A DNA stretch of 64,000 nucleotides. Origin: Mesorhizobium sp. SARCC-RB16n. GTDB taxonomy: Bacteria; Pseudomonadota; Alphaproteobacteria; Rhizobiales; Rhizobiaceae. The notes beneath the pieces were generated by a model. The model saw only the letters and a program-made list of their open reading frames with translations, was not told where the DNA came from and made no database searches. A program made the position numbers and the translations under genes. The DNA lies in NCBI RefSeq assembly GCF_008520305.1, contig NZ_ML703276.1, positions 32,814 through 96,813 of the forward strand, in the 5' to 3' direction. Shown piece after piece: positions 25,231 through 63,768 of the stretch. Each line of letters opens with the position of its first letter. Position 1 is the stretch's first letter.

Positions 25231-25246
25231 AGCAAACGCCGTGCCA
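25231..25246 (-). promoter_or_regulatory. Sigma-54 promoter of nifQ (P450 operon)
   Basis: Read on the minus strand TGGCAC-GGCGT-TTGCT is a full -24/-12 consensus. It should drive nifQ and probably the P450, ferredoxin, SDR and LLM genes behind it. Confidence 0.85.
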
Positions 25247-25449: not shown

Positions 25450-25472
25450 TGTCCGATGTCCGACATGCGACA
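25450..25472. promoter_or_regulatory. Overlapping pair of NifA sites between nifQ and prxS
   Basis: Two interlocked TGT-N10-ACA sites, 25450-25465 and 25457-25472. They lie about 45 bp from the prxS-side promoter and about 200 bp from the nifQ promoter, so they can serve both directions. Confidence 0.8.
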
Positions 25473-25515
25473 TAGCACATTAGGACCCGCCCCTTGTTTT
25501 CGAACGATTTCTCCT

Positions 25516-25531
25516 TGGCACGATCCATGCG
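25516..25531 (+). promoter_or_regulatory. Sigma-54 promoter toward prxS-rpoN
   Basis: TGGCAC-GATCC-ATGCG has the invariant GG and GC with ten bases between them. It is the only -24/-12 site seen upstream of prxS, although 590 bp from its start codon. Confidence 0.75.
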
Positions 25532-26122
25532 TGGAGATCCGAGAACACGTCACGGACGAAGGAGATGAGCCTTGTTGCAGAGGGAATGGCAATGTCGATG
25601 TGGCGTGAATGTAGGACCCATGCATATGTCACCGCCTTTGGCGGGCACGTTGCGCACCGCCAGTGTTGCTGACGGCGAGGCAACGCGTTTCCGGTGCGTT
25701 CAAACGACGTTGGGGAACGTTCGCGTCCGTACGGGAGTCGATCACACGAGCGGTGTGTCCGGCGAGGATGCTGCTCGGGCCATCGTCAATATTGATGAAT
25801 ATCCCTGCCTTGCCCTCGAGGGCCATCCTGACGTCGGCAACCCTGTCGTTACGCTTCGAGGCCTCTTGAGTGCCCCGGCGCACTTTACTCACAAACGCGC
25901 AATTCGTCGTCGATATCCCGTTCAACGGCACGGCCGTAGAAGGCGCACCAGAGAACCCAAGTCACCCCGATCGACCTCGTCGGGTGCCGAAGAGCTGGAG
26001 CCTGGCCCTGGCCGCGGCAAGGATCGGCGCCGCAAGACGCCTCACCCTAACCGGCCAGTGTCGAGCTTACGGCTGCCCCATAGAGACGCACTGCGCCAGT
26101 TTCCCTTACAGGAGCAAAATTG
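25532..26122 (+). other. Long leader between sigma-54 promoter and prxS
   Basis: Nearly 600 bp with open frames on both strands but no recognised family, no good ribosome site and no consistent coding frame. It is either an untranslated leader or remains of a lost gene. Confidence 0.4.
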
Positions 26123-28661: not shown

Positions 28662-30464
28662 TCAGACCGGGTCAGTTGTCGACCCCAGCGCCTGCCCTTT
28701 GATCAGCCGGCTATAGACACCACCCTCCAGGCGGATCAGCGAATCGTGATCTCCCTGCTCGACGATCTGGCCGCGATCGAATACGAGCAGCCTGTCAAGC
28801 GCGCGTACCGTCGAAAGCCGGTGCGCGACGACGAGCGTGGTGCGGCCGAGCGTGAGCCGTTCCATCGCGCTTTGGATCAACGCCTCCGACTCTGAATCAA
28901 GACTGGAGGTCGCCTCGTCAAGAATTAAGATTCGCGCATTGGCGAGAAAAGCGCGCGCGATCGCTACTCGCTGGCGCTCGCCGCCGGAAAGCTTGACCCC
29001 GCGTTCACCGACAAGCGTGCCGTATCCCTTCGGCAGTTGCACAATGAAATTATGCGCGCTGGCAAGCCGCGCCGCTTGCTCGATCTCTGCTTGGCTGGCG
29101 CCAGTTCGGCCGTAGGCAATGTTCTCGGCGAGGGAACGATGAAACAAGACGGGCTCTTGTTGCACGATCGCGATCTGCGAACGAAGAGAAGCCTGCGTCA
29201 CCCTCGAGATATCCTGCCGGTCGATCAGGATTACGCCATCACTCACGTCGTAAAGGCGCTGGATGAGCTTCACGAACGTCGTCTTTCCTGAACCGGAGGG
29301 GCCGACTAGACCGACCCGCTCGCCGGCCTGGATTGAGACCGATAAGTCGCGATAGAGCGGCTGCTGACGGCTGCCATAGTGGAACGAGACCTTCTCGAAT
29401 TCGATGTGGCCTTCCGTGATCCGGATCGGTCTGGCCGAGGGATCCTCGGCGGCACCAAGAGGTTGGCCCTGAATATCGACCAGCTCTTCCAAATCATTAA
29501 CAGAGCGCTGCAAGTAGCGGAGGTTCAAGCCGACATCACGAAGATAACCCTGTAGCAAGAAGAAGGAGGTCAGCACCAGGGCGATATCGCCCGCGGTTGC
29601 CTGGCCGCGCGACCACAGCAGTAAGGCATAGCCGACAACAGCCGTTCTAAGTGCGAGGATCGCTATGCTTTGGGTTGTGGCGTTAATCGTCGCGCGCACC
29701 CAAGTGCGGCGAGTACGGTCCCGCCATTTCGCCACGACCCTCGCGAGGCGATCGTCCTCTCGCGTTTCGGCACCGAACCCTTTGACCACTGCATTGCAGC
29801 TGATTGCATCCGCCAACGCGCCGCCCAGCTTTGTATCCCAGCGGTTGGCAAGGCTCGCGGCCGGCGCCACGTAGCCTAGCGATAACGCGACCGTCAACGT
29901 CAGGTAGACGATTGAACCGCATGCAATAATCAATCCCATCACTGCCCAATGCCAGCCGAGCAACACGGCCGAACCGATCAGCATGGCCAACGAAGGGAAC
30001 AGCGCGGTGAGAAGCGTGTAGTTCAGGAGGTCGATGGCCCACAAGCCGCGGGTGATCTTGCGCATTGTCGAGCCGGCGAAGTTGTTGGCATGCCAGTCAG
30101 TGGAAAAGCGCTGTACGCGCTGGAAGGCATCGCTCGCGGCATCTGTCATCATCTTCAACGTCAGCTCCATTAGTGCGGTCGAGCCGACGTGCCGGACGAT
30201 GGTCGCTCCAAATATGAGAGCAATCCCCACGAAGAAGGCGGTAAGCACCGCATCCCAGGCTGTTGCATCCAGGGCGGTACCCTGAGCAACGCGATCGACG
30301 AGACGGCCCGCATAGAACGGCATCAGCACGTCAGCCAGCGTGGCCGCAAGCTGCGCCGTCAGTACCGTCGCGAGCCGGGCTGGCTGTCTGCGCCATTGTT
30401 GAACCGTGTGGCCGAGAACGTCGCGAAAAGCGCCGTCGCGCAGCTTGTGATGAATTCTGTCCAT
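28662..30464 (-). CDS. ABC exporter, fused permease-ATPase (ABCB type)
   Basis: A 601-aa half-transporter. About residues 1-310 contain six membrane helices (ABC transmembrane type 1). The C-terminal ATPase has Walker A GPSGSGKTT (about 390), signature LSGGERQRVAIARA (about 493), Walker B ILILDEATSSLD (about 510) and the H-loop VAHRLST. It would work as a homodimer exporting a lipid, peptide or drug-like substrate. The start at 30464 (MDRIHHKLRD) is chosen over a TTG seven codons earlier, though neither has a strong ribosome site. It is divergent from the iscA-nifS operon and has a sigma-54-like site upstream. Confidence 0.88.
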   Translation of the reverse strand: MDRIHHKLRDGAFRDVLGHTVQQWRRQPARLATVLTAQLAATLADVLMPFYAGRLVDRVAQGTALDATAWDAVLTAFFVGIALIFGATIVRHVGSTALMELTLKMMTDAASDAFQRVQRFSTDWHANNFAGSTMRKITRGLWAIDLLNYTLLTALFPSLAMLIGSAVLLGWHWAVMGLIIACGSIVYLTLTVALSLGYVAPAASLANRWDTKLGGALADAISCNAVVKGFGAETREDDRLARVVAKWRDRTRRTWVRATINATTQSIAILALRTAVVGYALLLWSRGQATAGDIALVLTSFFLLQGYLRDVGLNLRYLQRSVNDLEELVDIQGQPLGAAEDPSARPIRITEGHIEFEKVSFHYGSRQQPLYRDLSVSIQAGERVGLVGPSGSGKTTFVKLIQRLYDVSDGVILIDRQDISRVTQASLRSQIAIVQQEPVLFHRSLAENIAYGRTGASQAEIEQAARLASAHNFIVQLPKGYGTLVGERGVKLSGGERQRVAIARAFLANARILILDEATSSLDSESEALIQSAMERLTLGRTTLVVAHRLSTVRALDRLLVFDRGQIVEQGDHDSLIRLEGGVYSRLIKGQALGSTTDPV

Positions 30465-30659
30465 GAGATTACAAGGGCGCGCCAAAGCGCACAGACGCTA
30501 GAAAGCTAAAGGCGGAAACTACGTACGGGGACGAAAACGTCTTTCGAACTTTGGGGCTCCGATACCGAGCTGACATGTTTTTGCTGTCCTTCCCTCGTTG
30601 CGTTGCCACAGGCGATATGAAATGGCGGCCGCTTTCCTGCGTGTTCGCGACGAGGGCTT

Positions 30660-41278: not shown

Positions 41279-41295
41279 GAAGGCGGGTGGATAGC

Positions 41296-42186
41296 ATGAA
41301 GGCTAATGGAATGAGCATGAACACCGTCCCGCGCCATCTTTTGATCACTCGGGACAGCCATGCCGAAACGCGGCTTGACCTGATCAAGGAGGCGCTCGCG
41401 GCCGACGTGATGGTTCCCTATCTCGGCCCGGGGCTTCTCCAGCTCGGCTGCGCGAAACCGCCGGTACCGCACACGCCGGAAGCCATCGCCTCGGCACTCA
41501 ACGCGCGCGCCCCAGCCCCCTCCAAGATCCGCACCAATATGTGGTCTGTCGCGCAGTTTATCGAACAGCGCCGACATCGCCGGACACTTCAGGGTTGGAT
41601 GGCCGAGATCTTCGCACCGCCTGCAGCGCCGACCATCCTCCACGCCTGGCTCGCCACGCTGCCGCTCTCGCTTATCGTCGACAGTTGGTATGATGGCGCC
41701 ATGCGCGCGGCCCTCATCGCGACCGGCCGAACGGATGTCGTCGAGATACAAGGCGTCACGCGGGCGAACGAAACCAAAGACATTTGGACCAAAGCCTATG
41801 ATTTGTCCGGAATTGAACTCGACCCGGTACCGCCGGTTGAGACCGTTCTCTATGTGCCCCATGGCAGCATCAGGCCTGCGGCAAACTTCCTGGTTTCAGA
41901 TTCCGACTATGTCGAAGTGCTGACAGATATCGATATCCAGACCCCGATCCCTAATCAGGTGAAGCAGCGGCGGAACAATCGGGGCTTCTTCTTCGTCGGC
42001 TGCCGCTTCGACGATCAGATGCTACGCACCTACGCCTTGCAGATCATGAAGCGATCCGACGGCCCACATTTCGCGCTCATTGATGGGTCGGTGCTGACCA
42101 GAAACGAACGCCGGTTCCTGGCTGCGTGTGCAGTCACAGTCATTGACATGCCGATAGACGTAGCCGCAGCTCGGCTTGCCGCATGA
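41296..42186 (+). CDS. SIR2-like domain protein in nif operon
   Basis: A 296-aa protein (ATG 41296, after an AGGAAGG; an in-frame GTG at 41287 is too close to that site). The N-terminus has DVMVPYLGPGLLQLG, resembling the NAD-binding loop of SIR2-like proteins, and the C-terminus ends in a Rossmann-type FFFVGCRFDDQMLR...HFALID as in SIR2_2-type domains. The classic sirtuin zinc cysteines are not evident. It follows nifT by 17 bp on the same strand, so it is probably NifA-controlled. Whether it deacylates, hydrolyses NAD or only binds nucleotide is unknown. Confidence 0.7.
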   Translation: MKANGMSMNTVPRHLLITRDSHAETRLDLIKEALAADVMVPYLGPGLLQLGCAKPPVPHTPEAIASALNARAPAPSKIRTNMWSVAQFIEQRRHRRTLQGWMAEIFAPPAAPTILHAWLATLPLSLIVDSWYDGAMRAALIATGRTDVVEIQGVTRANETKDIWTKAYDLSGIELDPVPPVETVLYVPHGSIRPAANFLVSDSDYVEVLTDIDIQTPIPNQVKQRRNNRGFFFVGCRFDDQMLRTYALQIMKRSDGPHFALIDGSVLTRNERRFLAACAVTVIDMPIDVAAARLAA

Positions 42187-42894: not shown

Positions 42895-43836
42895 CTAAGA
42901 GGTCTTGAGGGCCCCAGTCTCCTGGGGAGAAGCCAAGCGGGATGCTTCCTCCAATAGAATGTCCCGCATCCAAATGCTTGCCGAGTCGCTGTTGTGAAGC
43001 GCAGGCCATTGGAGGGCCAATGTGAATGCGGGAAGTGGCAGCGGAAGTTCGACAATTCGCAGGGGCACTGCTTTTGCAAAGTGCTTGACCAGCCGTAATG
43101 GTAAGGTCGCTATGCGATCAGTATGCGGCAGCAAGGGCGGGATCATGCTAAACCCCTGCACGACCACCTCGAGACGTCTCTTGATACCGTGCTCGAGCAA
43201 AAGCCATTCTTCAATAGATGGCTGCCGGGTACGCCCGAATTTGGCGGCAACGTGCCCCATCGACATGTACTGCTCAAATGTGAGCTGTCCTGACAGCTGC
43301 TCGTTGGTGGGGCAGCCCACGCACACGAATGTCTCGTCGAACAGTGCTGCTTTAGGATGTGCGCTCGACATGAACACGTCTGGAAGGACTAGGAAATCGA
43401 TCTCACCGCGCCGGAGTAGTTCATCGGGGTCATCGGTGAGAGAAAGCAACTCAAAGCTGACGGCGGGAGCTTCTCGCGCGACGCGCTGCACGACCGCTTG
43501 GAAAAATACGAGCGTCATGTAGTCGGAAATGCCGATCTTGAAGCAACGCTCCGATTGACCTGGGTTGAACATGTCCCAGGAAATGATGGAGAGCTGGACG
43601 TGCAGCAGAGCCTCGCGGACCGCGGGAGCAAGCCCTTCGGCACGAGGCGTTGGGACAAGTTCGCGGCCCCTCATCGTAAACAGCTCATCGCGAAAAAAGT
43701 CGCGCAACCGGGCGACGGCCGCGCTCATGGCCGGCTGGCTCAGGTTAATGCTGCGCGCGGCAGCAGTCAGGTTGCGCTCGTTCATGAGCGCGTCGAGCAC
43801 GACGAGAAGGTTTAGATCGAGGCCTTTAAAGCGCAC
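42895..43836 (-). CDS. nodD: NodD, LysR-family nod gene activator
   Basis: A 313-aa flavonoid-responsive LysR regulator. The N-terminal HTH is canonical ([34 protein letters not shown]). Start is GTG at 43836, the usual N-terminus of the family. It is divergent from nodH, with a nod box in between. Confidence 0.95.
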
Positions 43837-52092: not shown

Positions 52093-52680
52093 CGGGTGGA
52101 CGATCGATAAGAAAGAAGGAATCAACTACTTTCAAGTTGGGGCCGGCAACATTGCTTGCTGTAGATGGTCGCGCTTACATCTTGCGCAGCTTCACTCGCT
52201 TCCTATCCCGCCCTTACCAAGGATCACACCCACCTCCGTCCAATGGCATTAACAAGCTGAAGGTGGCCGGTAACGGCTGCCATTCCTAGGCGTGTGCATA
52301 CCATAACCTAGTAAGTGCTTCAGGTGAGAACCGCGGCTGTGCCGCTGGCCACCAAAAGGGTGCATGTCTAAGGCAATTAAGTGCTTTTTCCAGAGGATGT
52401 ATCACGGTTGCGGCTGCGGGATCACCTTCCGCTCGCTTCCGACACGGAGATGGTGCACAGGCAGCCGACCACTCCGGCGTGTCTAATCCTGGCGGATACC
52501 GATATCCGGCCTGCTCGGGAAGACCGCTTCGCATCCGGGCAGAAAGCAGAAAAAGCCCCGACACTTGTTGCATTTGTCGTTTCCGCGACGCGTGTTCTCA
52601 ACCGCCTCCCCTGGACCTCAGCCTGTTAATTCCCAGTAACAAATGCCCGAGATCCTTTTCGCAGTTGGCATGATTTTTGA
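52093..52680. other. Intergenic region downstream of nodJ
   Basis: No gene recognised in about 590 bp. This marks the change from nod genes to the LuxR-linked accessory cluster. Confidence 0.4.
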
Positions 52681-52727
52681 AGCTCGTGTTTGGAGGATGC
52701 CTCGGTATTGTAGGCATACAACGAGCT
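52681..52727 (+). promoter_or_regulatory. Nested inverted repeats in the luxR-type gene leader
   Basis: AGCTCGT (52681-52687) pairs with ACGAGCT (52721-52727) and, inside it, ATGCCT (52697-52702) pairs with AGGCAT (52712-52717). It ends 24 bp before the start codon. It could be a regulator-binding dyad or an RNA stem affecting translation. Confidence 0.4.
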
Positions 52728-52751
52728 CAAAACACGAAGAAGGGAAATCCG

Positions 52752-53504
52752 ATGCCCTTCCAGTCCAGCGACCCTCGCGACGCGTTTGCGCTGGAGTTCG
52801 GTCGATTTATTGAACACGTCAATAGTACTGCCCGGTCCGAGCTATTATTCGGCGTCTTAAGAGCCTTCGCGATGAAGTTCGATTACCCATGGATTGCTTA
52901 TGGCTCTCCCACGGCAGAACAGAGATGTTTGGAGCCGCCACAGTACGATCCGATGGTCATGCTGAACTATCCTACTGAATGGCAGGAGCGCTGCTCCCAA
53001 ATGGGCTACGGCAAGCTAGAGCCGACGGTCAAAACGAGTCGGGCCCGATTGGGTGTCTTTCGGTGGAGCGAAGTGTATACCGATGCGAGCACGACGAGGG
53101 AGGAGCGCCATGTTTTCGACGAGGCGGCGGCGTTCGGGCTGACATCAGGGATCACTGTTCCATTGCACGGGCCCGACGGCCATTTTGCTATCATGAGCTT
53201 CGCTCAGCCTCGCAACCGCGACTTCCAACACGGAACAATCGCCTATTTACAGCTTGCCGCCTCTCATTTCCATTTGCAATTCGCCAGGTCCCGAGTGTAT
53301 GCGGACGTTCCCAACCTCACACGGCGAGAAAAAGAATGTATACTTTGGGCATCAAGAGGTAAATCCTCTTGGGAAACAGGAATGATTATGCGTATATCTT
53401 TGAACACCGTAAATTTTCACCTGAAGAACGCCATGAGAAAATTGGACGCCTCCAACCGAACAGTCGCAGCAATGAAGGCAGTACGCTTCGGCATTATAGA
53501 GTGA
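52752..53504 (+). CDS. LuxR-family regulator, autoinducer-binding type
   Basis: A 250-aa protein with an N-terminal autoinducer-binding-type domain (about 20-165; FDYPWIAYG, GVFRWSEVY, GLTSGITVPLHGPDG) and a C-terminal LuxR HTH (LTRREKECILWASRGKSSWE, LNTVNFHLKNAMRKL). An AAGGGA site precedes the ATG at 52752. No luxI-type synthase is in the window, so it would be an orphan here. It lies beside, and convergent to, the first ATP-grasp gene. Confidence 0.85.
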   Translation: MPFQSSDPRDAFALEFGRFIEHVNSTARSELLFGVLRAFAMKFDYPWIAYGSPTAEQRCLEPPQYDPMVMLNYPTEWQERCSQMGYGKLEPTVKTSRARLGVFRWSEVYTDASTTREERHVFDEAAAFGLTSGITVPLHGPDGHFAIMSFAQPRNRDFQHGTIAYLQLAASHFHLQFARSRVYADVPNLTRREKECILWASRGKSSWETGMIMRISLNTVNFHLKNAMRKLDASNRTVAAMKAVRFGIIE

Positions 53505-53813
53505 AAACTGGCATCAGCAGGCACATCCGGTCTTTACGAGGTTGCTGTGCAATCTAACGTCACGGCCCGTGCCTGTGAGGGCCTAAAGGCAGCGTTAACA
53601 AACTCTTGCCGGCCACACGCCAACGCTGCCGTGTCCGCATTATGGGGAACATCCTTGCCTAGGTGCCCAATAAAACCGGGTCTTCCCAGCAGTCGTCCAC
53701 CGCTGTCGCCGAGGCGGCGCGCGGTTGCCGACCCAGATCCGGCCGAATCTGGTGCCATCGGGACGCGGCGAACGCTTAAGCAGTCACCAGTGCTTCCGCA
53801 AGGTTTCCTCTCA
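53505..53813. other. Gap between convergent luxR-type and ATP-grasp genes
   Basis: About 310 bp; no gene or clear terminator recognised. Confidence 0.35.
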
Positions 53814-55073
53814 TCAGTCTGGAAAATCAGGGGCGCCAAATTGTTCCTCTTCGCCAGCGGTCGAAAATGGCGTAATCGACCAACCGATCAAGTCAATGGC
53901 ACGTTGAACTATCTCCTCGGTCTGCGCGAGACACGGTGAAACGCCAACCACATATCCCATACGGTCGCGGTTATCCCCCTTGTTTACGATCGGGCACCGG
54001 GGTTGAACATACAATCTGACCTCGGCGATACCTGGCAATGCAGCCGCCTGACTGTCGCCACTGATCCATTCGAGAGTGCCATCTCCATCCGCAATTAGGG
54101 ACTGCGCGATTGCGGTACGCGAATGCTTTTTGCGCAAATCCCATTCGTCACCGATAGCGAGCTTGATGTGCTCGGTGAACAGATCGACACCGAATGCCAG
54201 CTGTAGAAGTTGGGGATCGGGGGCACCGGCAAGACGGGGATTGACTTCAATGACTACAGGACCGTGTTTCGTCCATCGGAACTCAATGTTTGTGGGTCCC
54301 CAGCCAAGTCCGAGAGCTCGCAAGCAGTTCATTGAAGCTTCGCGGAGACGGTTCTGTTCATCGTCAGTCAAGACGGCCGGAAAGATCAAGCGCCGAAAGA
54401 CGAAATACGGTGGCGGACCGTACTCGGCGGCGCCTATCCCAAGGACCTCATCTCCCATTATGGCCGCGAAATAATGGGTCCCTTGGGCGAATTCTTCGAC
54501 CAGCATCTCCGGCGAAGAGCGCCAATTATGTTTCATCGCCAGCAGATACGCCGCATGTTCGGACACCTCATCGGCGTCCCGGCACAATCGGACGCCCCGA
54601 CCACCGCTGCCTACCGATGGCTTAAGAATGACCGGCAGGCCGATCTCTGCGGCTGAACTTCTGACTTCAGCCGCGTTAGCCGCCATGCTATAAGCAGGGA
54701 TAGGAACGCCAGCCTCCGACAGAAGCTTACGTTGAATAAGTTTGTCGCAGCATTGCTCAACAGACGCGGAGTTCGGACCCGGTAGATCGAAAAAGCGGCA
54801 CAGCTTGCCGACTGTCGAGTAGAACGACTCTGTGGCGCTCGTGATGCCAGCAACCTCGTAGCTCTCGCGTAGCTGAGAACATTGGAGGATTAAGTCATTG
54901 ATGTTGCCTGTATCTACCCGAACAACAGTGAGATCTTCGGTGGTAGAAATTCCGTATCGATCTGGATCGGATGACAGCATTATCGGATGCAAGCCAAGAC
55001 GCTGAGCCGCTTTGACATAGAACGCGCCATTGCTCCTCGTGGTCTCCAGCAAGATGAGAGCTCTTGTTGCCAT
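53814..55073 (-). CDS. ATP-grasp ligase (carnosine-synthase/biotin-carboxylase-like)
   Basis: A 419-aa ATP-grasp enzyme, expected to join a carboxylate to an amine via acyl-phosphate. It shows the N-terminal preATP-grasp fold, the nucleotide lid (LPVILKPSVGSGGRGVRL), LVEEFAQGTHYFAAI, and the metal-binding end GPTNIEFRWTKHGPVVIEVNPRLAG. Length and pattern fit amino-acid ligases of small peptide pathways better than primary metabolism enzymes. It has a GAGGA site upstream. Substrate unknown. Confidence 0.82.
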   Translation of the reverse strand: MATRALILLETTRSNGAFYVKAAQRLGLHPIMLSSDPDRYGISTTEDLTVVRVDTGNINDLILQCSQLRESYEVAGITSATESFYSTVGKLCRFFDLPGPNSASVEQCCDKLIQRKLLSEAGVPIPAYSMAANAAEVRSSAAEIGLPVILKPSVGSGGRGVRLCRDADEVSEHAAYLLAMKHNWRSSPEMLVEEFAQGTHYFAAIMGDEVLGIGAAEYGPPPYFVFRRLIFPAVLTDDEQNRLREASMNCLRALGLGWGPTNIEFRWTKHGPVVIEVNPRLAGAPDPQLLQLAFGVDLFTEHIKLAIGDEWDLRKKHSRTAIAQSLIADGDGTLEWISGDSQAAALPGIAEVRLYVQPRCPIVNKGDNRDRMGYVVGVSPCLAQTEEIVQRAIDLIGWSITPFSTAGEEEQFGAPDFPD

Positions 55074-55307
55074 GGTCGATCGGTCCTCACCTGTTACTGC
55101 GCCAATACTGCATTGAGGTAATCACCCTCAGGGGCAAAGGATTCCCGTCGGAAGAATAGTGGCTCGCTCGCCAAAACCTGTCTCACAAGCCGCATCAGAC
55201 TGCCGCCGCCCCGGCGGTGTGACCAGGGTACGGGGAGCCGGGGCAATCACAAGAGGCACACCGGGAAAGCCGGCATTGCCTCCCGCGCCCGGTCATTCAT
55301 TCGCGGG

Positions 55308-56267
55308 TCAACTTACATAATTCAAGTATGGCTTGTACAACGGAAACGTAATGTCTTCTGGCATCTTTGTGATCACTCCCAATGCAGAGATGGCATTGTA
55401 ATAAGCAACCTCACGCGGCATTCCTTTGTCCGCCTCCGCTAACGCCCCCAATACGCTCTGCGCCGTGTGAAAGTCGATATTGAAGGAGATCGACGTCGTT
55501 AAGCTGCGAACGTGATGGAGCGTTCCGGGCGGCATGTAAAGCATGTCGCCAGCCCTTACGGTGATGGTGACGGGTGTCGCATGCCGGTACTGCGGAAAGC
55601 GCAAGTAGTCCGGTTGCTCAGGGTCTACATCAAACCATCTCCAACTACGGCGCCCACAGCACGCAGCCTGACGTGGAGGAAGGATGGTGAACTGTTTCGC
55701 GCCATAAATCTGGAAAAACAAATTGTGAGTAAGGAGCGTGTCGAAGTGAAGAGGTGTAACCGTACCGGCCGGACCCATGAAAAACTGCGAATAACGCCAC
55801 CAATGCTTGCGGTACCACGGGCTAAGGTAGTTTACTTGAAAGGGTTGGCAATCCCCAGCCAGGCTCTCCACAAGCGTTAGAAGTGGAATGTCGTGGCAAT
55901 ACGGAACTGCAGTTGGTCTCGGTGAGTCTTCGCCTTTGCGTACCGGCTGCTCCTGGAGGAACCGCGTGTAATCCGAGAGCTTCCAGGAGGAGACCTTAAT
56001 TTCACCGCCGTCGAGCGTCTTGACCGGTATAATAAGTGCGCCAGCAACTTGTTCCAGATATTCAGGTGACCAGCGCAGGCAGGCGCTCCAACCAGAGCAC
56101 GCACTACGGAGAAGGACCGGTCGCATTGCATCTCGGTAATTGTTTGCAAATTCGAGGTCGGATAGTACTGTCGGGCTAGCAACCGATGACCATCCCGAAT
56201 CTTCTAGCGTCGACAGTGAGTAGTCATACGGCGCTTGGATTGACGTTCCCGTCTCTTGTCCAACCAT
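55308..56267 (-). CDS. Cupin/JmjC-type (cupin_8) Fe(II) oxygenase
   Basis: A 319-aa JmjC-like protein. Metal ligands are suggested by the HFD pair in VTPLHFDTLLTHNLFFQIYG and the distant histidine in MPPGTLHHVRSL; KQFTILPP supplies the usual 2-oxoglutarate lysine position. Predicted to hydroxylate a small molecule or peptide residue using O2. An AAGGAA site precedes the ATG. Same strand as the flanking ATP-grasp and GNAT-like genes. Confidence 0.8.
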   Translation of the reverse strand: MVGQETGTSIQAPYDYSLSTLEDSGWSSVASPTVLSDLEFANNYRDAMRPVLLRSACSGWSACLRWSPEYLEQVAGALIIPVKTLDGGEIKVSSWKLSDYTRFLQEQPVRKGEDSPRPTAVPYCHDIPLLTLVESLAGDCQPFQVNYLSPWYRKHWWRYSQFFMGPAGTVTPLHFDTLLTHNLFFQIYGAKQFTILPPRQAACCGRRSWRWFDVDPEQPDYLRFPQYRHATPVTITVRAGDMLYMPPGTLHHVRSLTTSISFNIDFHTAQSVLGALAEADKGMPREVAYYNAISALGVITKMPEDITFPLYKPYLNYVS

Positions 56268-56752
56268 ACTGTTTTTCCTTCGCTTCCATCCCGCATGGAC
56301 GTTTGTGGCTGCGCCGTGTCCCAGCGGCCCGTTACCACAAATCTAAGAAATGACTCCAAGCTGCTCAACCACCAATCTAGGTAGGCTTCGAAGTCCGGTC
56401 GCACCCTGCGAGCACTTAGGCGTGCTGCTCGGAAGGTGCGCGATGTTCAGAATCTCCGACTGGAAAAGTTGCTCACCTCGGCAAAGTTCCTTTGTGGGGA
56501 CGTGGTCGTTCAATGTCGCACCGGGGCCGCTAGCCTAGCGCGTCACAGGTGTCCCCTCTGGCAGAATTTTGGTGGCTTTTGCGAAAGAAGGAGTGCGGAG
56601 CGACTCTCGGCCGCTCGCGGCAGTCCGTGTAGGTCAGATGGTCCCGTCTTCAACAGCGCGAAAGGAACCCGGTTTGCAGCCTTGCCAGTTCATTACAAAT
56701 TGATTGGACAGTAATTGTGTAGGAAAGCAGCTTACGATCTAGAGTTTCATAT
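56268..56752. other. Gap between cupin and GNAT-like genes
   Basis: 485 bp with no recognisable gene. Base composition is lower in GC than in the nif region, as across this whole cluster. Confidence 0.35.
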
Positions 56753-57493
56753 CTAGTATTCAGGCGTCAGCTTAGAACCCTTGCTGTCTGACAATCTATT
56801 CTGGTCCGCGACACCAAACCCCGACATCTTTAACAGTTCGTCTCGGGTCAGCCAAACGAGCCAGTCGTTATCGTCTATTCCCCGGTCGGGCAACCGCAAA
56901 ATTGATCCGTGCGGCTCTTGGTGAAAATATCCGCTTTGATGGGCTAGGCCCTTTTGGATATACCACTCAGCAACCAGCGCATAAATAAAGTGCGGCGACC
57001 ACCTAAGGTAGGCGATAGCAAATGCGATGGGACCAAGGCACGCTGCTAGGTCGTGGCCTCTAAAGTCTTCTCGCAGCCACACATCCCCGCGATATGCGAC
57101 GCGCCCCGTTATGCTGCGGGCGGCCGGCGCGGAGCAACTACACGATGAACCGGGCCCGGCTTTCAGGCCGGGATCGGCAAAGCAGGCTCTCAGCGACTCA
57201 AGGTGCTGAGCAAGGGTTGTGTTGGAAAGGTCGTCAAAACGCGTTGCCTGGACATGCGCTATGCCTCCGTCCTGGTCACGTCCCATAATCCAAAAAGCCT
57301 TTTCCGGCGATAGGTCGGAACAATCCGGACGGAAGTTAGGAAAGGTGGGATACTTTCCGGGCAGTGTGCTGGTAATCGCGACATACTCGTCGAAATCATC
57401 ACCCATCGTAAGGTGGAGGCCAGACTTGCGAGCCAGATCGTTTGCCGCACAGATGTACTTTGAGACTTCCAACGTGGCCGCACTGCCATTCAT
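56753..57493 (-). CDS. GNAT-like acyltransferase candidate
   Basis: A 246-aa protein. The segment VWLREDFRGHDLAACLGPIA resembles GNAT motif A (a basic R-x2-G turn before a helix), followed by FIYALVAEWYIQKGLAHQSG like motif B. No closer family recognised. In this cluster an N-acyltransferase acting on a diamino acid or dipeptide would make sense, but this is inference. Confidence 0.5.
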   Translation of the reverse strand: MNGSAATLEVSKYICAANDLARKSGLHLTMGDDFDEYVAITSTLPGKYPTFPNFRPDCSDLSPEKAFWIMGRDQDGGIAHVQATRFDDLSNTTLAQHLESLRACFADPGLKAGPGSSCSCSAPAARSITGRVAYRGDVWLREDFRGHDLAACLGPIAFAIAYLRWSPHFIYALVAEWYIQKGLAHQSGYFHQEPHGSILRLPDRGIDDNDWLVWLTRDELLKMSGFGVADQNRLSDSKGSKLTPEY

Positions 57494-57923
57494 CCCGACA
57501 CCTCACTTCTGAAACAACATGGCTTCTACAACTCCGCGCCAGCAGCGCGACTGCGGCACCTAGTAGTTGACACATGCGCTAATGGCGGTCCGGAGCGGCT
57601 TCGGCGTTGGGAAGGCGTAGGCCAAGCATAGATTCGATAGAGGTCATCTGTGGGACGGGTGTAGACGTCAGAAGCTAGCATCGCTCTTCCCGCTGCTTTT
57701 CCGATGATATGCCACGAAGCAATCTCGTCCTGCCAATAAAGAGCCTCTTGGTCGTTCTCCCGAAGGCTGCAGATGCTTGTCGCGGAGTCAGCCGACGCGA
57801 ATTCGTTGAAGCACCCGGAGAGGGGAGCTCTTTGAGACTAATTGGCCGCGGCAATCGCGGCCGATTTCCTAGGCAAATTGGTGTCCGAATCTTTCCGAGG
57901 GCCGCGCGTTCGATTCGCTCAAC
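57494..57923. other. Gap between GNAT-like and Ddl-like genes
   Basis: 430 bp; no gene or regulatory motif recognised. Confidence 0.35.
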
Positions 57924-58931
57924 CTAAGAGATCCCAACGCCAAAGTACCTGTTGTGGGCGACGTCGACGATGCGATTGACCAAACTTGAGAAGCTGTGTC
58001 CCGCCATCGCCCCCGCCAGGACATAGGGGCCGTCCATACCGAGTCCTGGCATCGAGTTAACCTCTAAGATAAAGGGTTGGCCAGAACGGTCGATCCGGAG
58101 GTCGACACGAGCATAGTCCTGGCAGTGGCAGGCATGGAAAGCTGCAACGGAAATATCCCGCAGCACCGTGCTAAGTTTGCTCCCGATTTCCGCCGGGCAA
58201 ATCTTCTGAGGCGCGCCCCTATGCATGTACTTCGCTTCCCAAGTTATAAGACGCGGTTCGTGATCCCCAAAATCGAGCTCCACCAAAGGCAAAACCTCAA
58301 GCTCTCCGTTTCCTAGCAGCGAAACTGTGATTTCCCGCCCGTCAATGTATTCTTCTACGAGTGCATCCTGGGCATACTGCATGGCGATCGCTTCCACGGC
58401 CTGCCTCAACTGAGCAGGTTCAGGCACGAGCTGCAATCCGAAGCTGTTGTCTTCATTACGTGGCTTCACTACCACCGGGAATTGGAGATCGCCGCTGCTC
58501 TCGGTGCCGCAACTCATGACGCGAAAGTTCGGCGTCGGAACGCCCGATTCGCGGATTAGCGTCTTGCTGATTACCTTGTCGTCTGCAAGCGCATGCCCGA
58601 GCGGGCTTGATCCGGTGTACGGAACACCGGCCATCTCCAGCATGGCCGGAACGTGCGTGAAACGATATTTGCCCTGAATCCCCTCGGCCAAGTTAAAGAC
58701 GATTCCGGAAGGGCGGCCTAACGCATCGGGCGGCATGAATCGCTCGAGCGTAGTGAGCAGTCCTTTATCGCCTTGGCACAGAAGCGTCTCGTGGCCGTCC
58801 TCTTGCACGGCCGCCACCAAGTGTTCGTAGTAGGAAACCTGCGGCCAAGGCTGCGGCGGCTGCGGATAAGACTGGCCGAACCGGTTGATCACGCCGGTAA
58901 CATCGCTGTTCGTCACTACCGCTACTTTCAT
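57924..58931 (-). CDS. D-alanine--D-alanine ligase-like ATP-grasp enzyme
   Basis: A 335-aa protein of the Ddl superfamily. Characteristic are VFNLAEGIQGKYRFTHVPAM (Ddl-type N-domain), PYTGSSPLGHALADDKVISK, the ATP-binding FPVVVKPRNEDNSFGL, EEYIDGREITVSLLG and the metal site RIDRSGQPFILEVNSMPGLG. Placement in an accessory cluster with another ATP-grasp gene suggests a peptide-bond-forming role outside cell-wall synthesis. An AGGAG site precedes the ATG. Confidence 0.85.
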   Translation of the reverse strand: MKVAVVTNSDVTGVINRFGQSYPQPPQPWPQVSYYEHLVAAVQEDGHETLLCQGDKGLLTTLERFMPPDALGRPSGIVFNLAEGIQGKYRFTHVPAMLEMAGVPYTGSSPLGHALADDKVISKTLIRESGVPTPNFRVMSCGTESSGDLQFPVVVKPRNEDNSFGLQLVPEPAQLRQAVEAIAMQYAQDALVEEYIDGREITVSLLGNGELEVLPLVELDFGDHEPRLITWEAKYMHRGAPQKICPAEIGSKLSTVLRDISVAAFHACHCQDYARVDLRIDRSGQPFILEVNSMPGLGMDGPYVLAGAMAGHSFSSLVNRIVDVAHNRYFGVGIS

Positions 58932-59701
58932 AAGCTACTCCTGGGATTGCTCATAATGTCCCAAGCAATTGGCGTGCCGCCAAGACCATTGGAGGGCGCT
59001 GCCAAAACCGGTGGTTTTCCACGGCGATTTCGAAGTACCAGCGCCTCAGTGTGTCAGTTTCCTGACATAGGTGCTGTTCAACCGGACACCGCTGAGCATG
59101 CGAGCAGACGTCGGATGCGACGGCCAAATCGTCCGTGGTCTTCTCGGCAGATAGTGCCAGCGTTCCCCCACCCGCAGAGAATGCCACAGGGCGTGGCCTA
59201 CCAGAACGCGGCTGTAGCCCGCGGGAATGATGGGGGGCCGTGCTGGTGGTGAGCTTGCGCCGCACGACGGCCGTCCTGATCGGCTCTGATTTGCCGATCT
59301 CCGACTAGCGCCTTGCGGCGGCCACCGGTGTGATTACGATTGCCCGCGTGGTTTGGGCCATCTCGTTCTCGCAATCTCTTCCCGGTCCAGGACTGCTAAA
59401 TCTCGACCTGGGCTGAGGGGCAACGAATCCGGTCTGACGTCGCTTCGATGTATTCCGCGCCTTGCAGTTGAGGATGGTCGTTGAACTGGTTTACGGTGTT
59501 GATCCGATCACCGAGCACAGCACCTGTGCGAAGACATTGGCCCGTGTTGCAGTCCCTTCATTCGGCGGAGGGGCAGAACCACGCCTATCGACCGACTCCA
59601 TCATGGCCGGTGACGATACTACCAAACCAAGTAGGTGTATGGACCGAGCATGTCGTTTAATTGTGGTTCGCCAGCGACAAAATTCAATCGGGTTCAGGAA
59701 G
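58932..59701. other. Divergent intergenic region of the accessory cluster
   Basis: 770 bp between the divergent Ddl-like and transaminase genes, holding the palindrome above. No gene recognised; this is the likely control region for both directions. Confidence 0.4.
59052..59067. promoter_or_regulatory. 16-bp palindrome upstream of Ddl-like gene (possible lux-type box)
   Basis: TGTCAG-TTTC-CTGACA is a perfect dyad, 121 bp upstream of the Ddl-like start and about 640 bp before the divergent transaminase. Its CTG/CAG-type arms recall LuxR-binding boxes. Binding by the regulator at 52752 is inference. Confidence 0.4.
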
Positions 59702-60985
59702 ATGATAAACAAAGAGAGCGCCAATAGTCCAAACTCATTATCTTCGTTCGAAGAACTTGAATCTAATGTACGCTCATATTCTCGCTCCTTTCCCGTCGTG
59801 TTCAGAAAAGCTGCAAGTGCCATTCTCGAGGACGAGAATGGCTCCGAGTTTATCGATTTTCTATCAGGTGCCGGCGTCCTTAATTACGGACATAATGATC
59901 CCGATCTGCTAGACGCGGCAATAGCATACTTGAAATCGAACGGAATCGTCCATGGATTGGACATGGCCACATCAGCCAAAAGACGATTCATGGAGGATTT
60001 TGGCGCGATTATTTTGCGTCCTCGCGGCCTGACATACAAGTTCCACTTTCCTGGGCCCACTGGAGCCAATGCCGTAGAAGCCGCACTGAAACTGGCGCGT
60101 AAGGTCACTGGCCGACACAGTGTAATTTCCTTCACAAACGGCTTTCACGGTGTGAGCTTGGGCGCACTCGCAATAACCGGTAATCGATACTACCGCGACG
60201 CGGCAGGCCTTCCTTCAGCCGGCGCAGTGTTTATGCCCTATGACGGATATTGGGGGGCCGACACTGACAGCTCGGAATATCTGGAAAGGGTGCTTGCTGA
60301 TGCAAGCAGTGGCGTTGACCTGCCTGCAGCGGTCATTCTGGAAACCGTTCAGGGCGAAGGGGGCATCAACCCTGCGAGCAAAGAGTGGTTGCAGTCGATC
60401 GAGCGTATCTGCAGAAAGGACGACATCGTCCTGATTGTGGATGACATTCAGGCAGGCTGCGGCAGAACGGGCAGTTTCTTCAGTTTCGAGTTCGCGGATA
60501 TCTCGCCTGATATAGTGGTTCTGTCGAAGTCCCTTAGCGGCAGCGGTTTGCCGCTGTCGCTTTTGCTGCTCAAGCCCGAACTGGACGTGTGGCGGCCGGG
60601 CGAACACAATGGAACGTTTCGAGGCAACAACTTGGCACTCGTGACCGCGACTGCCGCCTTGCGAAAATATTGGACGAATGAAAAGCTTTCTGAAGGCGTT
60701 GCCGAAAACGGGCGTATCCTGAAAGAGCACCTTCAGCATCTCGCTCAATGCAGTCGAGATCATAACCTTTCCGTGCGCGGACGGGGCATGATGCTAGGGC
60801 TCGATTGCAGCACGGGTAACTTGGCCGAAAAAATCGCCCGCAAGGCCTTCGAGAATGGGCTTGTGGTAGAACGATGCGGCGCCGAGGACCAGGTCATCAA
60901 GTTTCTTCCTCCTTTAACGATAGATGGGCCTGCGCTTCAACGCGGCCTCGACATTCTGGACAAGTCAGTCCGCGCAAGCACCTAG
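59702..60985 (+). CDS. Class-III aminotransferase, diaminobutyrate (EctB-like) type
   Basis: A 427-aa PLP transaminase resembling L-2,4-diaminobutyrate--2-oxoglutarate aminotransferases: FIDFLSGAGVLNYGHNDP, FPGPTGANAVEAALKLARK, ILETVQGEGGIN, VDDIQAGCGRTGSFFSFE, and the PLP lysine in VLSKSLSGSGLPLS (about residue 276). It would convert aspartate semialdehyde to 2,4-diaminobutyrate. ATG at 59702 chosen as the first in-frame ATG before conserved sequence; the AGGAA is unusually close, and the frame is open upstream. Confidence 0.86.
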   Translation: MINKESANSPNSLSSFEELESNVRSYSRSFPVVFRKAASAILEDENGSEFIDFLSGAGVLNYGHNDPDLLDAAIAYLKSNGIVHGLDMATSAKRRFMEDFGAIILRPRGLTYKFHFPGPTGANAVEAALKLARKVTGRHSVISFTNGFHGVSLGALAITGNRYYRDAAGLPSAGAVFMPYDGYWGADTDSSEYLERVLADASSGVDLPAAVILETVQGEGGINPASKEWLQSIERICRKDDIVLIVDDIQAGCGRTGSFFSFEFADISPDIVVLSKSLSGSGLPLSLLLLKPELDVWRPGEHNGTFRGNNLALVTATAALRKYWTNEKLSEGVAENGRILKEHLQHLAQCSRDHNLSVRGRGMMLGLDCSTGNLAEKIARKAFENGLVVERCGAEDQVIKFLPPLTIDGPALQRGLDILDKSVRAST

Positions 60986-61090
60986 AAATGTCGTACATGG
61001 CGAACGCGGCGGATGCTCAGTAGCGGCGGTCGCCGCAAACTTCGAGTAGTCGCCGCATCTGTGATTGGCAACCAACGTGCATGGTGGAAG

Positions 61091-62251
61091 ATGGACGCGA
61101 CTGTTCTCAAATTCGGGGGCTCAACCTTTGTGCATCCTGCCGAATACGATCGAGTCGCGAGGCACATAGCTGGCCGACTGGTGACAGAGAAAAGGAAAAT
61201 CGTGGCCGTAGTCAGCGCGATGTCGGGAGCAACCGATAAGCTCAAAGCAGTTATGCTCGACGTGAACAAGCAACCGTCGCCGTCAAACCTAGACGCGGCC
61301 CTGGCAACCGGAGAGATGCTCAGCGCCTGCCTGCTGGAGGCCGCCGTCGGCCGACTAGGAGTTCTGGTGACGTCGTTGAATGGCTATTCCCTTGGAATCC
61401 GCACGAATTCAGACTTCGGAAGCGCGTCGATAAAAAGTGCGGATCCTCAGCCAATCTGTGCAGCTCTACTAGAAAACGACGTTGTTATTGCTGCGGGCGC
61501 GCAGGCAATCGACCAAGCTGGCAGATTAACGTTTCTCGGCAGAAACTCCTCTGATCTAACTGCTGTCGTAATCGCCTCCATGCTGGAACAGCACGCTTGC
61601 GAAATTTACTCGGATGTTCCGGGCGTCTACACGGCAGACCCTTATCTCGTCTCAGGGGCACAACTGATACCGGAGATCGGTCACCGCAGAGTCGCAGAGA
61701 TGTCACGACATGGCGCAAAGGTCCTACACTACAGGGCAGTGGACTACGCTGAGAAGCAGGCGGTCACCATCATTTGCAAATCGCTCACCAGCGAAGGAGC
61801 CGTTGTAGGCACGACTGTTAAAGGCCATGCTAAAGTGCCTTCCGTCACAATCGCTCGGGACGCAACGGTGCTATCATGCTCCAACTTTGCAGAACGCGAC
61901 AACCTCCGCGACGTCCTTGATCAACATGACATCGCTGCGATCTCCATAGAGGATAGCTGCGGGGCCGCCATATGCATCGTAAGCGATATAGATTCTGCCA
62001 TGCGGCTTGGCCCGCTGAAGGGCGCTCGGGTCTCAATTAAACGAAGCACTGCGGTCACGGAGCTTGGAACTTCAGTGTGCACCCATTTGGAGAGCGATCA
62101 CGAGCGAGCTGTTTCCCTGGCCCGTCGCATCCACGATCGAATGTATCCTGGAGCGGCGGGTAAGCCGCTTGAGGCGAGAATGGCTAAACAGCGCTCGTCA
62201 GATAGATCGCCGTTCATCCGCAGAAACGATGGGCCGCGAAACTCGTCTTAA
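61091..62251 (+). CDS. Aspartate kinase
   Basis: A 386-aa aspartokinase: KFGGSTF near residue 7, VVSAMSGATDKL, FLGRNSSDLTAV, SDVPGVYTADP, and a C-terminal ACT-type region that looks divergent. It phosphorylates aspartate, the first step to aspartate semialdehyde. Its position 105 bp after the transaminase parallels the specialised aspartokinase of ectoine clusters and suggests precursor supply for diaminobutyrate rather than housekeeping Lys/Thr synthesis. Confidence 0.87.
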   Translation: MDATVLKFGGSTFVHPAEYDRVARHIAGRLVTEKRKIVAVVSAMSGATDKLKAVMLDVNKQPSPSNLDAALATGEMLSACLLEAAVGRLGVLVTSLNGYSLGIRTNSDFGSASIKSADPQPICAALLENDVVIAAGAQAIDQAGRLTFLGRNSSDLTAVVIASMLEQHACEIYSDVPGVYTADPYLVSGAQLIPEIGHRRVAEMSRHGAKVLHYRAVDYAEKQAVTIICKSLTSEGAVVGTTVKGHAKVPSVTIARDATVLSCSNFAERDNLRDVLDQHDIAAISIEDSCGAAICIVSDIDSAMRLGPLKGARVSIKRSTAVTELGTSVCTHLESDHERAVSLARRIHDRMYPGAAGKPLEARMAKQRSSDRSPFIRRNDGPRNSS

Positions 62252-62355: not shown

Positions 62356-63768
62356 TCAGATACCTATCGCCTCATACGCAGCTGCAACCCTGCGAATGGC
62401 CGTGACGTAAGCAGCGGTCCTGTAGTCGCCAAGTTGTGGCTGTGCCTCAAGAAGGCCGGCAATGCTCTCCCACGTGCTGCGCATGACGTCTTCGAGGCCG
62501 GAGCGGACAAGGTCTATCTCGGCGCCAGCTTCCAGAAATTGATCGCGCATATCGGCGGGAAACGGCTTACCTGTCATTCGCTCGAGAGCTGTGGCAATAG
62601 TCTGATTACGGTGCTCCCGTCGGCGTCGTTCCATCAGGCCGAACGGAATGTGGGTCAGGTTCTTCACCCATTCGAAGTAGCTGACAACAACGCCGCCGGC
62701 ATTCACATAGAGGTCAGGCAGGATCGTCGCGCCTCGAGCGCGCACGATTCGATCTGCCTCGAAGGTGACTGGCCCGTTGGCGGCTTCAACGATGAGATGC
62801 GCTTTAATGCGCTCGGCGTTTGCGCCATGAATGGCATTCTCCATGGCCGCTGGGATGACAATGTCACATGCTTCTTCGATCCCGGTCATGTCGCCCGCAA
62901 AGGACTTCGCGCCATCGAAACCCAGCACGCTGCCCCTACTCAGCTGATGTTGTTTGAGGGCTTCCACTGAAATCCCGTCGTGGTTGGCGACAAATCCATC
63001 TCGCTCCGCGACGACAGTGATCCGTGCACCATCTTGCTCGGAGAGGAACTTCGCGGCGTGATAACCGACGTTGCCAAAGCCTTGGACAACTACACTTGCG
63101 CCCTTGAGAACCCGGCGGCCACCAATCCCAGGCGTTCGCAGGTCGCGGAGGTAGTTCTGGATGGCAAACTGCACGCCGCGGCCTGTTGCCTCGGTCCGAC
63201 CAGCGATGCTACCTTTCGAGAGCGGCTTGCCGGTCACGCAAGCACGGGCGTTGACAACGTCCATGGGATTGGCGCGGCGGAACTCATCCATCATCCAGGC
63301 CATTTCGCGCTCGCCGGTGCCCACATCCGGCGCAGGCACGTTGAGTCCGGGCCCAATCAAGCCGCGTTTGGTGAGTTCCTGAGTGAAGCGCCGGGTAATA
63401 CGCTCAAGTTCCTGAGGCGTCCACTCCCGCGGATCTATCTTCAGCGCTCCCTTGGAGCCGCCGAACGGCACGTCGACCAAGGCGCATTTCAAGGTCATTA
63501 GCGCCGCGAGCGCTTCCACCTCTTCCGCATCGGCATCGGGGGCGAAGCGAATGCCACCCTTGACCGGCTCGCAATGTTCGCTGTGGACCGATCGCCAGCC
63601 GACAAAGCTGTGCATGCGGCCGCGCAGTCTAACACCGAAGCGGACCGTGTAGGTTGAGTTGCATTGCATGATCCGCTCGGACAGTCCCTCCGGAAGGTCA
63701 AGAAAGGTAATGGCGTGACGGAAGTTCTGGTCGACGCTCTGGAGAAAAGTGTCGGCTTGGGCCAGCAT
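62356..63768 (-). CDS. Glutamate dehydrogenase (Glu/Leu/Phe/Val family)
   Basis: A 470-aa NAD(P)-dependent dehydrogenase: catalytic Lys region PVKGGIRFAPDA, VPFGGSKGAL, NVPAPDVGTGEREMAWM, and nucleotide loop VVQGFGNVGYHAA. A GGAG site precedes the ATG. It interconverts glutamate and 2-oxoglutarate plus ammonia and could feed the transaminase with glutamate. It is convergent with the aspartokinase gene, so membership in the accessory cluster is uncertain. Confidence 0.9.
   Translation of the reverse strand: MLAQADTFLQSVDQNFRHAITFLDLPEGLSERIMQCNSTYTVRFGVRLRGRMHSFVGWRSVHSEHCEPVKGGIRFAPDADAEEVEALAALMTLKCALVDVPFGGSKGALKIDPREWTPQELERITRRFTQELTKRGLIGPGLNVPAPDVGTGEREMAWMMDEFRRANPMDVVNARACVTGKPLSKGSIAGRTEATGRGVQFAIQNYLRDLRTPGIGGRRVLKGASVVVQGFGNVGYHAAKFLSEQDGARITVVAERDGFVANHDGISVEALKQHQLSRGSVLGFDGAKSFAGDMTGIEEACDIVIPAAMENAIHGANAERIKAHLIVEAANGPVTFEADRIVRARGATILPDLYVNAGGVVVSYFEWVKNLTHIPFGLMERRRREHRNQTIATALERMTGKPFPADMRDQFLEAGAEIDLVRSGLEDVMRSTWESIAGLLEAQPQLGDYRTAAYVTAIRRVAAAYEAIGI

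Follow-up and report, generated by a model that had tools for sequence, protein, structure and literature searches.

What might be made by six enzyme genes packed beside the nodulation genes of a rhizobium? The question is raised by a 64,000-nucleotide stretch of Mesorhizobium sp. SARCC-RB16n (contig NZ_ML703276.1, positions 32,814 to 96,813; hereafter the window, whose own numbering is used below). At 52.7-62.3 kb it carries intact genes for a LuxR-type regulator, an ATP-grasp ligase of the L-amino-acid-ligase kind (LAL), a cupin_8/JmjC oxygenase, a GNAT-fold N-acyltransferase-like protein (GNATl), a second ATP-grasp ligase resembling D-alanine-D-alanine ligases (Ddl-like), an EctB-type transaminase and an aspartokinase-like amino-acid kinase (AK), and these adjoin nodBCIJ. 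We give slightly better than even credence to the view that the genes are a local assortment of a dispersed rhizobial kit with which nitrogen-fixing bacteroids make a peptide-like metabolite based on diaminobutyrate. The case is built on enzyme families, promoter elements, co-occurrence and linkage, read from DNA, and on published work on related genes; that L-2,4-diaminobutyrate (DABA) is coupled into a small peptide-like compound is what they suggest may happen.

DABA is very probably formed by EctB (59702..60985, + strand) and its supply arm. The predicted L-2,4-diaminobutyrate:2-oxoglutarate transaminase exceeds the curated cut-offs of TIGR02407 (661.7 vs. 552.2 bits) and PRK09264 (662.1 vs. 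438), can be aligned over almost its whole length with the solved EctB 6rl5 (E 2.9e-160) and is orthologous, at 77% identity, to dat (RLV_1844) on plasmid pRlvC of Rhizobium leguminosarum UPM791, whose product is a proven DABA aminotransferase (PMC10228743). In a tree of 35 rows, which includes long branches whose placing is unsure, the window protein, Dat and the EctBs of Sinorhizobium, Rhizobium plasmids and Bradyrhizobium form one side of a 95/92 branch, with the ectoine-type EctBs of Vibrio, Streptomyces and Mesorhizobium AR02 on the other. The ectoine side also takes in the long-branched EctB of Paraburkholderia phymatum and a Mesorhizobium island group of six rows, which suggests that recruitment of DABA transaminases by symbionts happened repeatedly.

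The AK gene (61091..62251, + strand) follows EctB in the same orientation at a distance of 105 bp, and PF00696 is the only Pfam domain of its product (124.2 bits). The asp_kin_monofn profile matches residues 2-272 of 407, and aspartokinase profiles cover about the first 70-80% of the protein; the equivalog cut-offs of NCBIfam are not reached (best 215.5 vs. 376), and a PDB search gave no solved structure at E 1e-40. As the Pfam scan found no ACT regulatory domain, it is a fair guess that the kinase is freed from feedback control. In the loci read, all eight matches to aspartate semialdehyde dehydrogenase (ASD) adjoin an AK gene (one a fragment, one in two pieces), and this frequent pairing points from aspartate to DABA, not from homoserine. 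A glutamate-dehydrogenase-like enzyme (GDH; 62356..63768, - strand), recognized in the profile scan, is an uncertain member of the set that possibly supplies the amino donor. Matches at E <= 1e-40 occur on nine of 14 related plasmids, eight of them at 79-85% identity and at a distance from the kit loci that were read on those plasmids, and in R. leguminosarum a more distant GDH (42%) stands in a row with a gene resembling glutamyl-tRNA reductase (GlutR-like), LAL and the aminomutase-type gene KamA.

Two other uses of DABA were considered and rejected. The ectoine cluster (ectABC, sometimes with a dedicated aspartokinase, as in Vibrio pelagius, where ectABC is followed by aspartate kinase) likewise combines aspartokinase and EctB for DABA. 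The window differs in having two ATP-grasp ligases, an EctB across the 95/92 branch, and no EctA or EctC among the 10 proteins scanned against Pfam and NCBIfam (50.3-63.8 kb; first residue of each translation set to M), which also showed no nonribosomal peptide synthetase (NRPS) family. For a rhizobactin-type siderophore, of which IucA/IucC families are the mark, EctB scores below the PRK06931 and PRK06938 cut-offs and no IucA/IucC family was found among the same proteins.

The ligases point beyond free DABA. LAL (53814..55073, - strand) contains LAL_C2 (PF18603, 39.6 vs. 29.4 bits) and CPSase_L_D2 (71.8 vs. 19.8 bits), and its structure matches include the LAL structures 4wd3 and 3vot and BacD, ranked below some biotin carboxylases. 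The Ddl-like protein (57924..58931, - strand) has a C-terminal catalytic half of the D-Ala-D-Ala ligase type (PF07478, 126.6 bits), with the KY and EVN stretches aligned to 8evv and E. coli DdlB, and its best NCBIfam score for that family, 167 bits, does not reach the cut-off of 243; it may still work like a D-alanine-D-alanine ligase. As its N-terminal half does not match the Ddl N domain (PF01820) at E 1e-3, the first substrate is probably not D-alanine. A role in peptidoglycan is thought unlikely because of this N-terminal half and because a chromosomal Ddl is reported to be down in NGR234 bacteroids (PMC3732241). The catalytic ATP-grasp domains and LAL_C2 are shared with dipeptide-forming systems (BacD of bacilysin, L-amino-acid ligases, Ddl), which differ from the window in partners and regulation; no search aimed specifically at the bacilysin genes was made.

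GNATl (56753..57493, - strand) has no Pfam model and matched no Pfam or NCBIfam family at E 1e-3, and the seven sequence matches among solved structures (E 0.16-0.26) were taken as chance. A second look at the GNATl model showed a GNAT fold, and an R-G-x-G stretch is conserved in the alignment. A scan of the species-genome collection with this alignment found 37 loci, whose titles name Rhizobium, Mesorhizobium, Microvirga or Bradyrhizobium in every case; close homologues were seen in rhizobial genera only, with weaker relatives on Roseibium and Azospirillum plasmids. A literature search for y4qH found no paper, and one for NrgB of B. japonicum, considered as a GNATl relative, gave none of use. 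The Azospirillum argentinense relative lies beside defence genes with no kit genes near. On the Roseibium plasmid (L018:11926-23602) a distant GNATl accompanies DegT and class III aminotransferases, an amino-acid kinase, an NDK-like protein, a GMC oxidoreductase, a GNAT protein and an MFS transporter, likely a biosynthetic cluster outside symbiosis.

The oxygenase gene (55308..56267, - strand; Cupin_8 112 bits, JmjC 29.8 bits) retains the HxD...H residues, which are the iron ligands of JmjC/cupin_8 oxygenases; its H-F-D and later H line up with structures of the JMJD5 and JMJD7 types. Homologues above 60% identity were found on six plasmid records, all of which also have EctB. A 43%-identical cupin_8 relative (L021:11989-12888) lies near a giant NRPS/polyketide synthase gene in Methylocystis bryophila, and for this reason enzymes of this type may act on peptide products. 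The LuxR-type regulator (52752..53504, + strand; autoinducer-binding PF03472 98.7 bits, GerE helix-turn-helix PF00196 59.2 bits) was compared with W57, Y61, D70 and W85 of TraR, which we take to be conserved ligand-pocket residues: by an alignment read by eye the Trp positions are kept, and the positions of Y61 and D70 vary among eight relatives.

A first-pass annotation of this DNA had listed the same genes beside nodulation genes, with a DABA supply arm, peptide-bond-forming ligases and neither an ectA/ectC pair nor an NRPS, and so far it stands; of the families that it proposed for profile searches, ATP-grasp and Cupin_8 were matched, GNAT was not. The present analysis adds a NifA-RpoN type promoter, a characterised orthologue (Dat) and a larger kit that includes ASD, a KamA-type aminomutase and MFS/MATE transporters.

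To see how the genes are distributed, we sampled two genera, a family-wide sample being too thin (GNATl in 3 of 151 genomes), and counted nodC, EctB (E <= 1e-90), GNATl, LAL (E <= 1e-130) and AK (E <= 1e-75); matches to Ddl mix in the housekeeping Ddl and were left uncounted. EctB was found only in genomes with nodC: in 75 of 90 against none of 39 without nodC in Mesorhizobium (129 genomes; Fisher 5e-21) and in 21 of 55 against none of 75 in Rhizobium (130 genomes; Fisher 1e-9; best matches 75-81%). These and the following Fisher tests treat related genomes and plasmids as independent, so their P values are too small. In Mesorhizobium GNATl is present in 24 genomes, each of which has both nodC and EctB. 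Among nodC-bearing Rhizobium, LAL occurs in 20 of 21 genomes with EctB vs. 6 of 34 without it (Fisher 1e-8), and AK in 10 of 21 vs. 3 of 34 (Fisher 0.002). The genes also tend to be close (distances start to start): of the 24 Mesorhizobium genomes with GNATl, 17 have it no more than 16 kb from an EctB, the two being on different contigs in the other seven, and among plasmids EctB has LuxR within 5 kb on 20 of the 33 with both and AK within 15 kb on 16 of 30.

The EctB group of the window comprises 42 plasmid records at >=74% identity, of which, with E-value cut-offs chosen for each gene, 30 carry AK and 33 LuxR. LAL was kept out of the joint count, and up to five LAL places were seen per plasmid among the best 60 of 109 LAL records. 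A single plasmid, pRgalIE4872c of R. gallicum, has EctB, AK, GNATl, Ddl, LuxR and cupin together, its GNATl in pieces. In 16 stretches from 14 plasmid records the gene order varies, many with transposase genes around or between the kit genes, and a conserved six-gene operon was rejected. The earlier view of the six genes as one conserved cluster therefore fails, its tie to symbiosis holds in the two genera, and its co-occurrence check came out divided: homologues are scattered, yet several pairs co-occur well beyond chance. The six enzymes are one selection from a kit that is dispersed over the symbiosis plasmids and islands of rhizobia, not a conserved block. Within 48 kb of pHRC017 (L011), a plasmid described as narrowing host range and increasing competitiveness, there are two ASD genes each beside an AK (one a fragment), three LALs, KamA and EctB, as well as glutamine synthetase, glutamate synthase and isocitrate dehydrogenase; the several kit-gene copies there no more than hint at host or competitor effects.

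Is any of this under nitrogen-fixation control? Using a sigma-54 matrix built from the consensus, not trained, we found 15 elements at threshold in the window, seven with a NifA-type site within 200 nt; ten plain base shuffles gave on average 5.5 elements and 0.1 with a site. The Ddl-like gene has the second best -24/-12 element of the window (CGGCACGCCAATTGCT, 58964..58979, - strand, score 15.8), and a NifA-type upstream activator site (TGTCAGGAAACTGACA, 59052..59067, - strand) precedes the -24 element by 88 nt, in the gap that separates the divergent Ddl and EctB genes. The layout resembles those of the window's nifB-like gene at 38,958 (site at -91) and nifH (site at -101). The LuxR gene shows the pattern of a -24/-12 element with TGT-N10-ACA upstream weakly: a sigma-54-like element (TGGCATGATTTTTGAA, 52666..52681, + strand, score 12.1) lies 91 nt downstream of a NifA-site-like sequence with one mismatch (TGTCGTTTCCGCGACG, 52575-52590), the whole being weak on its own. 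No NifA-RpoN type promoter was found ahead of the window's remaining genes of this set, and no palindromes or repeats common to the six promoters of the set were detected.

Related loci show the same partial pattern. A -24/-12 element precedes three of six Ddl orthologues with enough upstream DNA (L001, L010, L016; those of NGR234, S. meliloti and S. medicae), at 122-135 nt before the start. Five of 12 LuxR genes, the window's included, reach threshold and seven fall below; TGGCACGACTTTTGAA-type elements precede the relatives in L004, L005, L006 and L013, a like one is visible in L028, and nifH-like elements occur before LuxR in R. gallicum, R. tropici, S. numidicum and NGR234, with a NifA-type site in S. 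numidicum only. For KamA-like genes, four of seven have both element and NifA-type site, three of these four promoters being at Bradyrhizobium loci with KamA upstream of GNATl. Against a background of 44 of 689 open reading frames of >=200 aa with an element at threshold, the Fisher P values for Ddl (4/7), LuxR (5/12) and KamA (4/7) are about 4e-4 to 5e-4, which is too small because orthologues are treated as independent. In Bradyrhizobium L049, L050 and L054 the KamA-like genes sit behind a near-perfect NifA-RpoN type promoter and are followed by GNATl; a full-length EctB match lies between the two in L054, pieces of one in L049, and none was seen in L050.

The two EctB genes with an element at threshold are those of R. 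leguminosarum (L017, L025). The authors of the Dat study report that dat is not preceded by an obvious site for NifA or FnrN (PMC10228743). We found TGGCACGAAACTTGAA 126 nt before the annotated dat start, and no NifA-type site within 200 nt of it. With GNATl, cupin, ASD, LAL, AK and EctB genes mostly lacking elements, the promoter elements indicate NifA control for a part of the set and do not show it for the whole.

R. leguminosarum also offers one of the closest known arrangements. On pRlvC, beside nifHDK, there is a row of nifH, TlpA, ectB/dat, LAL, Ddl, GlutR-like, LAL and MFS genes, and an AK-ASD pair lies across nifHDKEN from it. Unlike the window's Ddl-like protein, the Ddl there carries a Ddl N domain and is only distantly paralogous, and unlike the window, the 49 kb read contain no GNATl and no close cupin_8 relative. 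A second row beside fixABCX-nifA (GDH, an unnamed protein, LAL, KamA) fits RLV_1887-1884, old RLV numbers having been matched to the present annotation by gene order. Published work covers these genes in bacteroids: loss of dat removes DABA from pea bacteroids and lowers shoot weight, nodule size and competitiveness in pea, not in lentil (PMC10228743), and RLV_1843A, 1844, 1845, 1846, 1848 and 1849 are higher in pea than in lentil bacteroids (iTRAQ 2.41-3.77; PMC7950203, Tables 3-4). Among 1,104 bacteroid proteins KamA ranks 38, Ddl (RLV_1846) 39, a GlutR N-domain protein 96 and LAL 99 (PMC11784457); the RPSM of 297 given there for RLV_1846 conflicts with its rank and with the 111 of PMC7950203, and the rank is used here. 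The 315-aa protein between the R. leguminosarum ligases (L017:25929-26876, + strand) matches only the glutamyl-tRNA-reductase N domain (28.2 bits), and an unnamed gene beside LAL and KamA (L068:9540-10478, - strand) is at the place that matches the listed GlutR N-domain protein (PMC11784457). Such a protein possibly represents an aminoacyl-tRNA-using step.

Comparable reports exist for two further symbionts. The DABA transaminase gene msi260 of M. loti R7A is poorly expressed in nodules of a nifA2 mutant (PMC3538637). In nodules of a P. phymatum nifA mutant, ectB (log2 -7.58), the GNAT gene Bphy_7268 (-8.06), a D-Ala-D-Ala ligase gene (-8.45) and MatE (-8.21) fall and 2,4-diaminobutanoate is lower (PMC8305402). 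Like the window, plasmid pBPHY02 of this species has ectB with a GNAT gene (about 0.9 kb downstream) as well as a Ddl, and ectB, Ddl and MatE are NifA-dependent there; its EctB is outside the window's group, and the sequences indicate similar parts from other lineages. DABA transaminases that depend on NifA or are abundant in bacteroids have been described, in separate papers, for three symbionts, two of them with ligase-like proteins; no publication joining these findings into one pathway was found in the open-licence literature.

From these parts we infer an order of steps, with substrates for the ligases, the GNAT-fold enzyme and the oxygenase, export and a purpose for the product. Aspartokinase, with ASD from elsewhere in the genome, would convert aspartate to aspartate semialdehyde, from which EctB would form DABA using glutamate; the two ATP-grasp ligases would set amide bonds between DABA and other amino acids, GNATl would probably acylate an amine, most likely that of DABA or a DABA peptide, and the JmjC/cupin_8 enzyme would hydroxylate a building block or the product. 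NifA and RpoN would turn on at least the Ddl-like gene, perhaps LuxR as well, in the low-oxygen nodule, and the LuxR protein, with its variable presumed ligand pocket, would perhaps tune the kit. A DABA-containing peptide-like product is proposed because AK and ASD point from aspartate to DABA and the ligases beyond it.

The published reading of Dat makes DABA a nutrient intermediate, formed from host homoserine by way of aspartate semialdehyde and leading to beta-alanine and pantothenate, so that the ligases would be unrelated passengers. As an account of the window we consider it unlikely, although the dat mutant grows worse on homoserine, DABA overcomes pantothenate auxotrophy and beta-alanine drops in dat pea bacteroids (PMC10228743), and panD lies near the KamA-type gene (KAM) in AR10 and, in Bradyrhizobium 187, some 8 kb away from EctB, so that beta-alanine may matter in such neighbourhoods. 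An aspartokinase, however, is needed only in the direction from aspartate to semialdehyde, yet a relative is on 30 of the 42 EctB plasmids; EctB and LAL travel together in Rhizobium; and EctB is present in many nodulating genomes of both genera, most of whose hosts are not known to be homoserine-rich. Moreover the R. leguminosarum row includes dat, two LALs and Ddl, which increase jointly in pea bacteroids (PMC7950203). The words "ATP-grasp" and "aspartokinase" are absent from the Dat paper, which reads the gene in terms of homoserine and pantothenate metabolism (PMC10228743); this leaves the plasmid-borne aspartokinase, semialdehyde dehydrogenase and ligases unexplained, and it can hold for pea at the same time. 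That the genes are independent passengers of symbiosis islands, brought close by the accident of insertion-sequence shuffling, appears quite improbable to us: varying gene order, surrounding transposase genes, the solitary R. gallicum plasmid with the six together and close GDH relatives away from kit loci speak for it, but the linkage of EctB with GNATl and LuxR, together with its co-occurrence with LAL among nodC-bearing genomes, exceeds what a shared island would readily give, and the coordinated bacteroid abundance in R. leguminosarum (PMC7950203) also speaks against it. Least probable of all, in our view, is an N-acylated DABA or ectoine-like compatible solute, in which GNATl would replace EctA and the ligases would serve something else. 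EctA is a GNAT protein too, and GNATl has the GNAT fold, the R-G-x-G stretch and a place near EctB in many loci; against this, no EctC was found in the scanned set, GNATl is on just 13 of the 42 EctB plasmids, and LAL accompanies EctB in nearly every Rhizobium genome that has it.

A dispersed kit for a DABA-based peptide-like metabolite has several observations to contend with. The authors of the Dat study attribute the mutant phenotype to homoserine use and pantothenate supply (PMC10228743), an msi260 mutant of M. loti is fully effective (PMC3538637), and the P. phymatum ATP-grasp gene Bphy_7724 is up in the nifA mutant (PMC8305402). The GNAT protein of P. phymatum has no detectable relation to GNATl, and the best Ddl-type match on pBPHY02 is 29% over part of the window protein. 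Most Mesorhizobium EctBs belong to a different lineage at 50-58% identity, with >=80% in three of 75 genomes; on the 42 EctB plasmids AK is missing from 12, and GNATl, pieces counted, occurs on 13, Ddl on seven and cupin on six. The region from 52.7 to 63.8 kb contains no exporter gene. The Ddl orthologues of L007, L012 and L015 have no -24/-12 element, and the 330 nt read before the three element-bearing ones contain no TGT-N9-11-ACA. Sigma-54 elements at threshold precede none of 46 GNATl, four cupin and eight ASD genes, and are rare before EctB (2/33), LAL (1/27) and AK (1/10). The ligase substrates and the product of the kit are themselves predictions.

Elsewhere in the window, the strongest sigma-54 element (TGGCACGGCGTTTGCT, score 18.4, at 25246, - strand) belongs to a region beside nif (19087-25625, - strand) with genes named, by reading their translations, as flavin-dependent-monooxygenase-like, double-SDR with an NTF2-like part, and P450-like. 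A gene read as an MsbA-like ABC exporter (28662-30485, - strand) has a sigma-54 element at 30675 (- strand) with a NifA-type site 192 nt upstream. A SIR2-like open frame (41287-42186, + strand) stands beside a nodD-like gene at 42895-43836, again identified by reading.

The cluster reading of the window was half right, and the wider pattern is of greater interest than this one stretch. We put forward tentatively, as a possibility short of an even prospect, that alpha- and beta-proteobacterial legume symbionts have repeatedly placed a DABA transaminase, an N-acyltransferase and ATP-grasp ligases under NifA, making peptides of diaminobutyrate (beta-lysine, beta-alanine) from newly fixed nitrogen that act on the host or on competitors. 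If so, such peptides would form a general class of nodule metabolites that has gone unrecognised. The window would hold a version with a hydroxylase and a LuxR solo, and NRPS and RiPP (ribosomally synthesized and post-translationally modified peptide) genome mining would pass the class over because the genes are scattered. Such a class would join loose ends from separate papers: the DABA aminotransferase required for full symbiosis with pea, the NifA-dependent DABA-transaminase genes of M. loti and P. phymatum, and the abundant Ddl-like, LAL-like and KamA proteins of pea bacteroids. Nodules would then contain bacterial peptide metabolites under nitrogen-fixation control, and the purpose of bacteroid DABA would become a testable question.

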